Shown one piece after another: positions 4,714-36,552 of a stretch of DNA of 64,000 bases (within the stretch, counting starts at the first letter, position 1; every line of letters starts with the position of its first letter). The notes beneath the pieces were generated by a model, which was given only the letters and a program-made list of their open reading frames with translations, had not been told where the DNA came from and ran no database searches. Origin of the DNA: Bacteroidia bacterium (GTDB lineage Bacteria; Bacteroidota; Bacteroidia; Chitinophagales; JAUHXS01); the NCBI GenBank assembly GCA_030426955.1, contig JAUHXS010000001.1, forward strand, positions 208,661 to 272,660, given 5' to 3'. The position numbers and the translations under genes were made by a program.

Positions 4714-4793
4714 AGAACTTAACTAACTACTTTAACTTAATAATATAATTATACTACTATTTATATTATAGTATTACTAGTTAGTTAAGTTCT
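4714..4793. repeat. 80-bp nested inverted repeat
   Basis: Perfect 16-bp arms, AGAACTTAACTAACTA at 4714-4729 and its complement at 4778-4793, enclose an AT-only loop that itself holds a 9-bp inverted repeat (4740-4748 with 4761-4769). It lies between the winged-helix remnant and the 3' end of the serine recombinase remnant. It could be a two-way terminator, a cruciform, or an old recombination site. It is not followed by a clean T-run on either strand. Confidence 0.6.
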
Positions 4794-4817
4794 ACTATTT
4801 AAATAAACTTGAGTCTA

Positions 4818-5174
4818 CTAATTAATACTGCTCTTGCTATTATGCTTCAATAGACGTTTCCTTTCTTCCTTAAGAATATAGTTCTTAGAAGACCGTTTCT
4901 TTCTGTCTTTACTGCCATGAGGTCTTCCAAGTTTCTTTCCCTGTGATTTAGCCCTAGCCAATCCTTCAAGTGTCCTTTGACGAATAATTTCTCTTTCAAA
5001 TTCAGCAATAGAACCAAGGATATTAAACTGTAATCTACCAACAGGTGTAGAAAAATCAATATTATCTTTCAAAGCTATAAATGCTATATTTTTATTGACC
5101 AGTTCATTTATTTCCAGTATAAGCTCCGTCAAGCTTCGTTTAACAATATGACTGCAACGATCAACAGAAAATAT
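4818..5174 (-). pseudogene. Serine recombinase (resolvase/invertase family), 5'-truncated
   Basis: The readable frame covers the C-terminal half of a resolvase: a remnant of the DRxSR region (VDRCSHIVKRSLTEL), the long E helix (FNILGSIAEFEREIIRQRTL) and the start of the DNA-binding tail (GLARAKSQGKKLGRPHGS). The N-terminal part with the catalytic Ser is missing; a TAG stands at 5175-5177, and the upstream DNA does not give a clear resolvase N terminus. The later helix-turn-helix is also degenerate (poly-Lys/Ser end). It cannot be an active recombinase. It marks a former mobile element in the island. Confidence 0.75.
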
Positions 5175-31116: not shown

Positions 31117-31446
31117 AGTTACGCTAGATGCTCAGTAGCTCTGCAAGGAGGGTAGTAAAATGTCTATTGTAACACCTGCTGGACAACCATTACAAGTCTC
31201 TAACCATATTTAATATTATTGGTTATTGCTATACCATTTGTTGAAATAGTTGCCTACATTGATGTTATATGTACAAGAATAATTCATTATACATGTATCC
31301 TTATATGTTTTTGATAGCGTAAAAAGTGTATTTTTTTACATTTAGATTAGATGAACTTTAGGAATATTTTGTTTGTTTTTTCAAATAGTTTGACAATTTA
31401 TGCAAATAAATGACAAGAAATATGTCATTTTCCCGTTATAAGAGTG

Positions 31447-31454
31447 TAAATTTG
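31447..31454 (+). promoter_or_regulatory. -7 element of a candidate small RNA
   Basis: TAAATTTG matches TAnnTTTG in a 455-bp gap without protein genes. Transcription would start near 31460, just ahead of the hairpin series described next. No clear -33 TTTG. Confidence 0.4.
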
Positions 31455-31459
31455 TTTCA

Positions 31460-31578
31460 TAAGGAACTAAACTAGACAACTTCTAGTTAAAAAATTAAGG
31501 TTGTCTTATTACCATAACCCGCTTCATGCGGCGGTTGCTATTCAGTTAGCACGGGTATAAGAGAACCTTTCTTATTTT
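31460..31578 (+). ncRNA. Candidate structured small RNA next to the DUF3800 gene
   Basis: Three paired regions follow one another. First, AGACAACTT (31474-31482) pairs with AA-GTTGTCT (31497-31506, one bulged G). Second, ACCCG (31517-31521) pairs with CGGGT (31552-31556), enclosing a TGCTA/TAGCA hairpin (31536-31540, 31547-31551) and a competing CCGC/GCGG hairpin (31519-31522, 31528-31531). Third, ATAAGAGA (31557-31564) pairs with TTTCTTAT (31568-31575), followed by TTTT, like a weak terminator; one pair is G-U, possible only on the plus strand. The 3' end overlaps the stop codon of the convergent DUF3800 gene. From memory, several structured RNA motifs near DUF3800 genes have been reported by computation. 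Confidence 0.5.
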
Positions 31579-32369
31579 GGCTTATCTACATTAAAAGGAC
31601 TAGCAACATCCAATGAGAATGGATTATCCTTCCAATAGAAATTTCCTAGCTTTTCTTCTTCAAAACGCTTTCTATCAAAAGGATCTATGATGAGATTGTA
31701 TTTATGCTGTAAAGCTTTGAAGTATCTTTCTTCTTTAAAAATGATATATCTCTGTAATGCCCACAGTAAATAATCCACAATACTTAACTCTGGATACATA
31801 CTGCTTTTAACTATATCACTTTTGTAAGATAGTTCAACCTTATCATCTTGTGCAACTGAGTCTATTGCTTTTATAATGGCTTGATTAAAGCGTTCCATTG
31901 TTGAACTCTTTCTCTGTGCTAGATAAAGATTGTATTGAATATCAGCTTTGCTTAGCCTTCTGGTTAGCAGTAGCTTTAATAGTTCAAAGTAGAATGCTGT
32001 TGGGTCACTGTTATGCCGTTTCTTGAATCTACCTAAATGTTTTCTGCCGATGATAACGTGTACCTGAAAACCTTTTAATCTTCTTAGATATTCAAAGAAC
32101 TTTGCTCTTATCTCTGAGTGGTCATTTTTTGCGTGTAAATACCAATCAGGTTGACTTACGGAATAAATGCTTTTATATAGAGGGTCTGCTAATATCTTCT
32201 TCTGAAAGCCAACTACCTGTTCTCTAAGTAATACTCTATTGTTAGTAGAAACCATGCCGATTAGTAGTAGAGGAGAGTACCCATCTGTACCTACTAGACT
32301 CTTTCCTCTCTTACCTAAGAAGGTTGGACTACCAGATTCGTCAATGAATATATACTTATGCTTCTTCAT
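31572..32369 (-). CDS. DUF3800 domain protein
   Basis: A 265-residue soluble protein. The start HKYIFIDESGSPTFLG has the DESG mark of DUF3800, and near the C terminus LSIVDYLLWALQRYIIFKEE fits the family's conserved 'LQxADxxxxAxxR'-type helix. The family is thought to have an RNase H-like fold with acidic active-site residues; no reaction is established that I know of. DUF3800 genes are often found in mobile and defence-related settings. Here the gene stands alone, with its own -7 element (32395-32402), and points at the candidate structured RNA at 31460-31578. Confidence 0.82.
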   Translation of the reverse strand: MKKHKYIFIDESGSPTFLGKRGKSLVGTDGYSPLLLIGMVSTNNRVLLREQVVGFQKKILADPLYKSIYSVSQPDWYLHAKNDHSEIRAKFFEYLRRLKGFQVHVIIGRKHLGRFKKRHNSDPTAFYFELLKLLLTRRLSKADIQYNLYLAQRKSSTMERFNQAIIKAIDSVAQDDKVELSYKSDIVKSSMYPELSIVDYLLWALQRYIIFKEERYFKALQHKYNLIIDPFDRKRFEEEKLGNFYWKDNPFSLDVASPFNVDKPK

Positions 32370-32660: not shown

Positions 32661-34610
32661 TTAATTAATCGTAATCAGCTGTTTTCGTTCGATATAACCA
32701 TCAATGCTAATTGATATCAAATAGCTGCCACTAGGCAATTGCAATGCTTTACTATCTAATTGATTATAATGTTTCCCTTTTAGTTGTTTTTCATCAACCA
32801 GAATGGAGATGCGTTTACCTTCAATGCTTAAAAGTTCTAATAAAACAGAAGCATTTTGTTTCAATTCATAATCAACCTTAGTTATTCCATCAGAGGGATT
32901 AGGATAAATATGAAGATTAGGTTTACTTGCGAATCCAATAATTTGGATGCCAGTAGCATCCTCAAAATGAATATAGTCAGAGTCGACAGTTACTTTTACC
33001 AAAGTTTCATCAGCAACACCACCCGAAATATTTATACCATAATTAGTATCTATTGGCACTCCAGGAATATTGACATAAATACCATATTCACCATCGTTCA
33101 GGCCATTGAACTGAAAATACCCGTCTTGGTCGGTTTGATCACTCCCTATAGATGGCGTTGAGGTTGATTTGTCAATTAAAGAGACATCTAAGCCATTTAA
33201 AGGGTCACCTGGTCCTTGCACTTTCCCAACTCCTTCTCCCTTTACAACTCTTCCCACTATTTTTCCTGTTCCAGACGGAACAGACGTTACGTTATTAACA
33301 ATAATATCTTCTGTTATTCCATTAGAGCCTACATTTGCAATTATTGCAGGTGCTTTTTGCCAATTAACGTGCCCTCCATTATAGGTTGGAGTACTATTCG
33401 GATATAGCCCAATATCAGGCAAAACCAATATATTATATGCTGTATTAGGTATTATAGAAGGGAAAGAGTAGCTTCCATCTTCATCGATAAATGCTTGTGC
33501 TGCTACTGGGAATTGTCCTGGATCAGGATTTCTTTTTATTAATTGAACTGTACCTGTTTTTACGGTATCATCAGTAGAACCTAGAAGTACATATCCAGAC
33601 AATGGAATACTTTCTAGCGTAATGGTATTTGATGCATTAGATAACGAATTTACACTAGCATTACCACCATCTGCGATAGATAGAATAAAAACTTTATACG
33701 GGATATTGCTTTGAATAGGGGCACCATTTTTATCAGGCGTGTTGGCCGATAGTATGGTACTTATATTAGAGCCAGTTTTAGGTATCGGAGTAGAATAGCC
33801 AGATAAGCTTGCAATATTTGCAAGGCTATCATTAAAGGTAGCAGATTCTGACTCTTTCACAATGATAGCATCATATCTGGCGATCAAAGATTCATCACTA
33901 GCTTTATTGAATGATACTTTAATATCGCCCGCATTACCTAAGTCATTAATGTCTTCAGCAATAATGCCACCACTAACGGATCCTGCGGGAACTACCCCTG
34001 TTATAATAGACTTTCCAGGTGTGGATTCATAGGCATAGTCTTTTACCACAACGGTTCCTACAGTACTATCTATAGAAAGTCTTGCCCAACCGTAAAAAAC
34101 GTTTACACCCACTTTAAATCTCAGTCCTAAATATTTATCCGTTGTATTTACCCATTGGCCATTAGTATTTATGTTAAAAGTTGTTGATGAAGAGAAACGA
34201 CGATTTCTTTGAGCCATTTTAAAAGTGGCTGTAGGGCTAAATTGAGAATTCCAGTTTGAGTTCAAACTCCCTAATACTTGATTTTTTTCATGTGCAATGG
34301 GAAAATAAAACCCTTCTCCTCCTGTAGCAGATATTGAGTTGGTGTTTAAGCCATAAACATAGGCATATCTTCTAGTACTAGAACTGACGCTAAGGTAAGT
34401 CACATCGTATAGGCGGCCATCAATTCTAAAGTCATCTGTGCCATCATTATTAATATCCAACAATAGAGTATCACTATCAATTACAGACAATGTCGAATCA
34501 GGGTCTATATTGGTATAGATAATATCTGCATTAGCTAATTGAGACGATGCTAAGATTCCCCCTGCAACTTTAGAATAGGAGAGTAGCTTGTTTTTTAATT
34601 TAGATTCCAT
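32661..34610 (-). CDS. Secreted multi-domain protein with T9SS type A sorting tail, paralogue 2
   Basis: A 649-residue protein. The N terminus (KLLSYSKVAGGILASSQLAN then ADIIYTNIDPDSTL) leads to a beta-rich domain with KYLGLRFKVGVNVFYGWARL and VKDYAYESTPGKSI. Later parts include fibronectin-like strands, a SdrD/CNA-B-like module (DVSLIDKSTSTPS, DQDGYFQFNGLNDGEYGIYV) and a C-terminal sorting tail (LHIYPNPSDGITKVDYEL to SGSYLISISIDGYIERKQLI). It shares its whole layout with the gene 7 bp upstream, from which it arose by tandem duplication; the two are one transcript. Likely exported to the cell surface; role unknown. Confidence 0.82.
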   Translation of the reverse strand: MESKLKNKLLSYSKVAGGILASSQLANADIIYTNIDPDSTLSVIDSDTLLLDINNDGTDDFRIDGRLYDVTYLSVSSSTRRYAYVYGLNTNSISATGGEGFYFPIAHEKNQVLGSLNSNWNSQFSPTATFKMAQRNRRFSSSTTFNINTNGQWVNTTDKYLGLRFKVGVNVFYGWARLSIDSTVGTVVVKDYAYESTPGKSIITGVVPAGSVSGGIIAEDINDLGNAGDIKVSFNKASDESLIARYDAIIVKESESATFNDSLANIASLSGYSTPIPKTGSNISTILSANTPDKNGAPIQSNIPYKVFILSIADGGNASVNSLSNASNTITLESIPLSGYVLLGSTDDTVKTGTVQLIKRNPDPGQFPVAAQAFIDEDGSYSFPSIIPNTAYNILVLPDIGLYPNSTPTYNGGHVNWQKAPAIIANVGSNGITEDIIVNNVTSVPSGTGKIVGRVVKGEGVGKVQGPGDPLNGLDVSLIDKSTSTPSIGSDQTDQDGYFQFNGLNDGEYGIYVNIPGVPIDTNYGINISGGVADETLVKVTVDSDYIHFEDATGIQIIGFASKPNLHIYPNPSDGITKVDYELKQNASVLLELLSIEGKRISILVDEKQLKGKHYNQLDSKALQLPSGSYLISISIDGYIERKQLITIN

Positions 34611-34617
34611 TGGTACG

Positions 34618-36552
34618 TTAGTTTATCTTAATTAGTTGCTTTCTTTCAACTAAACCATTAATATTAATCACAATAAAATAATTACCTGAAGGCATATTGT
34701 ACCTAGTGGCGTCGATATTTACTGTATGTTGACCTTTTGCTTGTCTTTCATCTATTAAGATCGCAATCTGTCTTCCTTCAATATCTTTCAATTCTAACTT
34801 TACATCAGCATTTTGCTTGAGCTCATAGCTAATGTCGGCTCTACTTGAGATCGGATTGGGATAGATGGCTAAACTAGGATGATCTTTCGCTCCGTATACC
34901 TTAATTCCCGTTGCATCTTCAAAAGAAATATAGTTTGAATCAACCGTTACTTTTACCAATCCTTGACTAGATTGTCCAGCAGAAACATTTACAGTATAGT
35001 TTGTATCAATAGGTATTCCTGGGATATTGACATAAATGCTGTATTCTCCATCGTCTAAGCCTGAAAAGTTAAACATACCATTTTGATTAGATTCTTGTCC
35101 ACCTAATGCAGGGCTAGAAGTAGATTTATCTATTAGCGAGACATCGAGACCGTTTAATGGATCTCCTGGACCTTGTACTTTTCCAAACCCCTCACCTCTG
35201 ACAATTCGTCCACTAATCGTACCTGCGCCTGATGGAGCGGATACTACGTTGTTAACGATAATGTCTTCTGTCAGACCACTCGAGCCCACACTAGCAGTTA
35301 TCGTTGGTGCCTTTTGCCAATTAGCAACATTGCCATTATAGGTTTGATTACTATTGGGGTATATGCCCTCATCTGCAATAGCTAACAAGAAATATTCTAC
35401 ATTGGGTAATACTGATGGGAAAGTATAACTACCATCCTCATTGATAAACGATTGACCAACTATCGGAAATTGTCCTAGATCAGGATTTTTTCTAATTAGT
35501 TGTACGATACCAACTTTAACCGTATCACTGGTGGAACCTAAGAATACCGTTCCTGTCAATGGAATACTTTGAAGTGTGACGCTATTAGATTGGCTAGAAA
35601 GGTTGTTAATAGTTGTATTGGCACCGTTTGCTACGGTCAATACAAAGGCTCTGTAGGCCACACCTACCTGAATTGGGTCGCCATTCTTATCTACGGTATT
35701 CGCAGAAAGTGTGATGTCAATGTTTGATCCAGTTTTAGGCACGAATTCGGCATGTCCTAAAAGGCTTGCACTATTAGCGGCTTGTAAGTCGAAGCCACTT
35801 GCTTCAGTAGCCTTGACAAGAAAAACATCATACCTAGCAATGACACTTTCATCAGCTAGTTTATTAAAACGTATTCTTATGTCACTAGCATTCCCATTAT
35901 CTCCAACATCAGATAGAACAATACTACTGCCACTTACGGCTTCAGCTTGTCTTGCTCCAGCTTCAATTGACTTTCCAGGGATAGATTCATATGCGTAGTC
36001 TTTTACAGTAAGCGTTTTCATACTGTCATCTACGCTTAGTCGTATCCAGCCATATAGACTGTCCAAGCCGACTTTTAATCGAATTCCTAGATATTTATTT
36101 GTCTCACCTGGCCAATTGCCATTAACTATTTTGTTTGTAGAAAAGCCCATGTAATCTCGATAGGTGTAACTACCAAGGTTGCCAAACTCTGAAAAAGAAT
36201 CCACCCAGTATCTACTGCCAGTTGCTTGATAAGATACTGGTTCACCTTTTGCCATTACTGCTGGCCCTGGTCCTGAGCTAGCTACTAAAGAAGCGCTATT
36301 TAGACCTCTTGCTTTTGCAAATCGCTTGTAATAAAATGAAATAGAAGAGCTTGCAGTGGTCATAAAGTCAATCCTGAAGTCAGGCGTACTATTATTGTCT
36401 ATGTCAATGATAATAAAATCCTGATCCATTGACAAGGTACTATCTGGATCGATATTGGTGTAGATAATATCTGCATTGGCAACAGAACCCGTTAGTGTTC
36501 CGCCTGCTAAAAGTGCATATGAGCGGAGTTTATTTTTGATGTCTTTATTCAT
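34618..36552 (-). CDS. Secreted multi-domain protein with T9SS type A sorting tail, paralogue 1
   Basis: A 644-residue protein with the same order of parts as its neighbour: start with RSYALLAGGTLTGSVANADI, beta domain with KYLGIRLKVGLDSLYGWIRL and VKDYAYESIPGKSI, middle domains, a CNA-B-like module (LNGLDVSLIDKSTSSPA, NQNGMFNFSGLDDGEYSIYV) and tail LAIYPNPISSRADISYEL. Identity to the neighbour is highest in the DIIYTNIDPDSTLS segment, the PGDPLNGLDVSLIDKS segment and the tail; the middle has diverged. It is first in the pair. The DIIYTNIDPDSTL opening is the kind seen in secreted Bacteroidota proteins that carry a read-out of numbers or dates only by chance; function unknown. Confidence 0.82.
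   Translation of the reverse strand: MNKDIKNKLRSYALLAGGTLTGSVANADIIYTNIDPDSTLSMDQDFIIIDIDNNSTPDFRIDFMTTASSSISFYYKRFAKARGLNSASLVASSGPGPAVMAKGEPVSYQATGSRYWVDSFSEFGNLGSYTYRDYMGFSTNKIVNGNWPGETNKYLGIRLKVGLDSLYGWIRLSVDDSMKTLTVKDYAYESIPGKSIEAGARQAEAVSGSSIVLSDVGDNGNASDIRIRFNKLADESVIARYDVFLVKATEASGFDLQAANSASLLGHAEFVPKTGSNIDITLSANTVDKNGDPIQVGVAYRAFVLTVANGANTTINNLSSQSNSVTLQSIPLTGTVFLGSTSDTVKVGIVQLIRKNPDLGQFPIVGQSFINEDGSYTFPSVLPNVEYFLLAIADEGIYPNSNQTYNGNVANWQKAPTITASVGSSGLTEDIIVNNVVSAPSGAGTISGRIVRGEGFGKVQGPGDPLNGLDVSLIDKSTSSPALGGQESNQNGMFNFSGLDDGEYSIYVNIPGIPIDTNYTVNVSAGQSSQGLVKVTVDSNYISFEDATGIKVYGAKDHPSLAIYPNPISSRADISYELKQNADVKLELKDIEGRQIAILIDERQAKGQHTVNIDATRYNMPSGNYFIVININGLVERKQLIKIN

Follow-up and report, generated by a model that had tools for sequence, protein, structure and literature searches.

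The window, a stretch of 64,000 nucleotides from a Bacteroidia bacterium, encodes a DUF3800 protein on the minus strand (31572-32369; 265 codons) that scores 24.4 bits against the PF12686 profile of Pfam, for which the curated cut-off is 21. The stop codon of this gene borders a 455-bp gap (31117-31571) that follows a LolD-type ABC gene, in agreement with the gap length given by an earlier reading made from the sequence only. Housekeeping genes surround both. Two adjacent look-alike paralogous secreted proteins of 649 and 644 aa, the first of which has a Por_Secre_tail sorting domain, are encoded at 32661-36552.

The core of a structured RNA (31497-31583) was identified on the plus strand, convergent to the DUF3800 gene. 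A -7 promoter element of the Bacteroidota type, TAAATTTG, is found at 31447-31454, as the sequence-only reading had claimed, and the whole transcript probably extends from 31460 to 31583, judging by this element for its start and by a U-rich stretch for its end. An extra 5' hairpin (AACTAG..CTAGTT, 31466-31490) that is absent from most relatives precedes the core. The stems that had been named earlier are all present: the closing stem P1 (31497-31569), which is made up of P1a (31497-31502/31564-31569) and P1b (31504-31509/31557-31562); the hairpin P2, CCGC-UUCAU-GCGG (31519-31531), with CCGC at 31519-31522 and GCGG at 31528-31531; and the hairpin P3 (31536-31551), with UGCUA/UAGCA arms at 31536-31540/31547-31551 and a conserved ACGG after it. 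In most relatives that carry the same class of RNA (type A, see below), P3 reads UGCCA-GUAU-UGGCACGG. The U-rich 3' end TTTCTTATTTT (31568-31578) comes after P1a and overlaps the DUF3800 stop codon (31572-31574).

The plus strand of 31497-31574 has a folding energy of -28.2 kcal/mol, compared to -15.5 kcal/mol for shuffled sequences (z -4.31; 1 of 200 shuffles was equally good); for the minus strand, z is -3.06. The proposal of a plus-strand structured RNA that is partnered with DUF3800 is upheld. A competing hairpin (ACCCG/CGGGT), also put forward from the sequence, can be drawn, yet its pairing is not conserved in the relatives and a function for it is unsupported. We rejected this alternative pairing because the relatives keep P1b, P2 and P3, which together make a three-way junction.

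The DUF3800 protein is confidently predicted, from an AlphaFold2 model with a pLDDT of 93.7, to have an RNase-HII-like fold of the RNase H superfamily, in line with the nuclease-like fold suspected at the outset. The best solved structural match of the model is RNase HII (E 1.6e-6; Z 11.2, 3.7 A over 174 residues); Argonaute PIWI domains come next, with Z of about 8. The relation to RNase HII is undetectable by a sequence search of the PDB, which gave nothing significant. Residues D10, E11, H79 and D199 are invariant; the first strand carries D10-E11 within a DE(A/S)G motif, at the place where RNase HII has DEAG. The two share the fold and the DE-A-G motif, but the GRG motif carried by RNase HII is absent in DUF3800, which is an accessory gene with a partner RNA. 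We infer from the model that the DUF3800 protein probably catalyses nuclease cleavage.

Relatives of the protein were gathered from whole genomes, GTDB contigs and viral contigs. No DUF3800 relative was found in plasmids, in phages or by a single-sequence scan of genome contigs, and an alignment-based scan of contigs recovered relatives where the single-sequence scan gave none. The intact close relatives belong to Bacteroidota, Verrucomicrobiota, Chlorobiota, Chloroflexota, Cyanobacteriota and other phyla. A convergent RNA follows the DUF3800 stop codon in all 87 of the 87 intact close relatives used for the protein tree, the RNA of a few divergent type C relatives having been recognised by eye, and no intact DUF3800 gene of the window's clade without the RNA was found among the relatives examined. 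These RNAs have a common design, with the closing stem P1, the hairpins P2 and P3 and often a recognisable promoter, and they fall into three sequence classes. Type A (GGUUGCCAGUAUUGGCACGG) is the class of the window's RNA, type B (UGAA...CGRC-UYCAN-GYCG...UUAG) is the commonest, and type C is found in Chloroflexota, Cyanobacteriota, Deinococcota and other hosts. Nearly all loci have a single copy of the RNA. Second copies are seen only in the viral contig L100, where two tandem type-A copies follow the DUF3800 gene (4747-4928), in L084 (1041-1144) and perhaps in L081.

The sequence-only reading had staked its case on covariation among homologous gaps; strong covariation was found there for types A and B, and the case therefore stands. 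Changes on both sides occur in 15 of the 20 type-B pairs, 93.2% of the cells are paired (75.5% when shuffled and at most 51% when slid), and the covariation score is 0.557, compared to 0.234 for shuffled and at most 0.148 for slid alignments. Type-B P2 is 99.4% paired with both sides changing. For type A, RNAalifold run on a MAFFT alignment recovers P3 only, because P1 is misaligned there, so P1 was tested instead by parsing each RNA and swapping the arms. P1b forms 6.74 of 7 pairs with the cognate arms and 5.41 with swapped arms, a score that none of 1000 permutations reaches; type-A P2 is weaker on its own (46 of 2000 permutations). The type-A covariance model R2, which was built from the relatives without the window, matches 31503-31571 (38.2 bits, E 3.3e-7) as the sole significant match in the 3.4-Mb genome, the next match having an E of 1.5. 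The type-B model R1 matches 31488-31594 with an E of 0.027, its only match in the window, and detects 25 RNAs in 22 of 395 genomes of the window's phylum. A direct DNA similarity search for the RNA in 41 relatives gave chance matches only.

The sequence TANNTTTG piles up just upstream of P1, at 29-40 bases (type B) or 59-69 bases (type A) before the anchor. It is present within the tested range in 40 of 90 loci, mostly those of Bacteroidota, and elsewhere occurs about 0-3 times per 20-base bin. Sigma-70-like TTGACA/TATAAT boxes are visible by eye at the corresponding place in several other phyla. In the window, ~43 bases separate the -7 element from P1 downstream of it, more than in the relatives, and the 5' end of the RNA is therefore longer. 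With predicted promoter elements of its own, the RNA looks like a separate gene.

RNA classes A and C each coincide with one clade of the protein tree that has full support; on this tree the class changes only twice, the minimum. Two loci (L029 and L030) each contain two tandem DUF3800 genes, one of clade A and one of clade B, and each gene is followed by an RNA of its own class. The gene and its cognate RNA almost certainly constitute one cassette. Its spread is patchy and the clades hold mixed host phyla, which means that the gene-RNA pair moves as a unit; comparison of the loci shows transfer of the whole cassette between phyla, partly in defence operons.

In the Chlorobium group, some RNA copies are located beside DUF3800 remnants and others without any DUF3800. 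Several of the remnants in Chlorobium relatives are cut off at the same point, which may go back to a single event. The orphan RNAs in this group (L145, L146, L147, L148 and L152) are type-B-like with the P2 loop changed to GGCCUCUGGCC; they have no DUF3800 nearby, and several share flanks. Among 13 more distant DUF3800 genes that were sampled, several are without such an RNA; the fold is thus able to work on its own, which counts against the antitoxin scheme set out below. The more distant DUF3800 genes of L119, L121 and L122, which are partly broken, are faced by a fourth type of RNA, UUCCGC..CUGAUAACA..hairpin..GGAUAGUCAG..GCGG, with a similar three-way-junction plan. Just past the stop codon of two other distant DUF3800 genes (L158 and L162), there is a possible convergent motif, TAATCCARTT...YTGGAGGTGGA, with a hairpin and a terminator, apparently a separate RNA class.

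A defence context, as anticipated from the window, was found in the relatives. Of the families among the 104 nearest neighbours, N-6 methylases (12) and HsdS domains (8) rank first, and 4 neighbours have type ISP domains. Type I restriction-modification (RM) genes adjoin the cassette in 24 of 88 loci, and RM genes are present on both sides in 13; gene orders such as hsdR-hsdM-[cassette]-hsdS include examples confirmed with Pfam. An empty site is seen in a related operon, G058 (HsdM 70% identical), where hsdS directly follows hsdM. The L002 cassette has a copy of the hsdM/hsdS junction on either side, as a 26-base direct repeat. Direct repeats closely bracket the cassette in 5 of 82 loci, compared to 1 of 116 control genes, which is suggestive only, and we do not take them as proof of mobility. 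These repeats (L002, L062, L069, L078 and L098) are 26-277 bp long and 77-96% identical; those at L002, L062 and L069 are apparently duplicated pieces of the adjacent gene.

The best reading of these data is a nuclease with a dedicated controlling RNA. In the mechanism that we propose, a two-part cassette consists of the DUF3800 nuclease with its RNase H fold and of a convergent three-way-junction RNA, ~80-120 nt long and transcribed on its own; the RNA would bind DUF3800 directly and keep the nuclease inactive, like RNA antitoxins. Phage infection or a disabled restriction system would stop the supply of the RNA or displace it, and the freed nuclease would then cut RNA, RNA-DNA hybrids or DNA, so that growth would stop. 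We give this whole scheme of an RNA-restrained DUF3800 nuclease, released upon phage infection or failed restriction, an even chance of being right. The holding role of the RNA, taken by itself, is likewise balanced between right and wrong. It is favoured because the RNA always accompanies the intact protein in this clade and is sometimes kept without it, because the setting is defensive, and because there is a precedent in AbiF and its RNA RCd22, another protein-linked candidate motif, which was later recognised as a type III-like antitoxin (PMC12373285). Against it, the RNAs beside dead DUF3800 genes could reflect recent decay, and the RNA is convergent and rarely repeated, unlike those of known type III systems. 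The position of the window's cassette among housekeeping genes also speaks against the scheme. A 'defence or toxin-RNA system', as the sequence-only reading had put it, is what we can best infer for the pair. More tentatively, and somewhat short of even, DUF3800 with its RNase-HII fold, under the control of its convergent three-way-junction RNA, may be an immune cassette not described so far that has been repeatedly inserted in type I RM operons as a back-up and is unleashed when restriction fails.

The main rival to the antitoxin role is that of a cofactor: the RNA would be an activating cofactor or a guide, serving as scaffold, and DUF3800 an immune nuclease that depends on RNA, in loose analogy to OMEGA/TnpB or Argonaute. 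The predicted RNase H/PIWI-like fold and the one-to-one association of RNA and protein with matching classes fit this role, as does the occurrence of DUF3800, an RNase H fold nuclease, as an accessory in some type V-A2 and VI-F CRISPR loci (PMC10910872, PMC12669027). RAGATH-18, another orphan motif, proved to be a TnpB guide RNA (PMC11061315). We nevertheless consider the cofactor role rather unlikely. No variable, unpaired spacer-like segment is seen at either end of the type A and B alignments, which speaks against a programmable guide, although a short or hidden guide could escape this comparison and the 5' end is longer in the window. In most relatives the promoter element directly adjoins P1, and pairing or conservation continues up to the end of the RNA. 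Besides, Chlorobium relatives keep the RNA without an intact DUF3800.

Better odds than these are enjoyed by the antitoxin role and worse ones by the proposal that the RNA acts on expression, which we regard as improbable. Here the convergent transcript or a bidirectional terminator would limit DUF3800 mRNA or the downstream RM genes and no protein would be bound. Convergent 3' ends at or overlapping the DUF3800 stop codon, and RNA promoters that face the transcription of RM operons, speak for it, but a terminator or antisense overlap needs P1 only, which leaves the conserved P2, P3 and junction sequences, as well as the match of RNA class to protein, unexplained. It is very improbable that the cassette is mainly selfish, with the RNA forming the terminus of a mobile unit: the patchy spread, the empty site and the excess of bracketing repeats agree with it, but the unit has no transposase or recombinase, most loci have no duplication at the cassette, and the RNA comes with a promoter and with compensatory changes.

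As a general kind, structured RNAs close to DUF3800 genes are already on record in Rfam. Membership of the window's RNA in one of these motifs, an early suggestion, was not borne out: at gathering and at permissive thresholds alike, neither the window nor any of the tested type A, B or C RNAs is matched by an Rfam model, DUF3800-I to -XI included. As a positive control, RF03075 (DUF3800-VIII) was recognised in a more distant DUF3800 locus (L166). A search of 61 genomes with RF02969 (DUF3800-I) gave nothing, its controls being silent too. Like the Rfam motifs, the RNAs described here are small, structured and found next to DUF3800 genes. In L166, DUF3800-VIII shares the convergent position immediately after the DUF3800 stop codon, the closing stem, a strand with GAA and one of the UAG type. 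What sets the window's class apart is its two hairpins and a conserved sequence of its own. In the literature that was examined, we found no earlier description of the class-for-class pairing, the lodging in restriction operons or the tandem cognate pairs. So far, DUF3800-linked RNAs have been listed as motifs of no known function; here the RNA is tied, as cognate partner, to one DUF3800 clade. Through its further ties to an RNase-H-type fold and to RM operons across several phyla, what was an orphan motif becomes a candidate toxin-RNA or RNA-nuclease immune module that lends itself to direct tests, and the covariance models, together with the tandem cognate pairs, are ready-made material for specificity tests.

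Several known systems resemble this cassette in part. The window protein scores 60 bits against the PADLOC model DUF3800_VII, the retron type VII effector, a model that all 62 members match. Unlike retron type VII, however, the RNA is a three-way junction with no sign of msr-msd, and the ten neighbour proteins at 24.2-39.1 kb belong to other Pfam families, with no reverse transcriptase among them. As with the anticodon nucleases PrrC and RloC, an extra nuclease gene is carried with hsd genes, suggesting a possible back-up for failed restriction. The protein family is unrelated, and PrrC, whose regulator is a type I RM protein (PMC3874168), is held by RM proteins and has no partner RNA. In known type III toxin-antitoxin systems the antitoxin RNA is upstream in the operon and usually in tandem repeats, whereas the DUF3800 RNA is convergent and nearly always single-copy. 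AbiF is a Cas13-related Abi_2 protein with its RNA upstream on the same strand, in contrast to the RNase H fold of DUF3800 and its convergent RNA, but in that system, too, a toxic Abi protein in a defence setting is accompanied by a structured cognate RNA that was first listed as an orphan motif.
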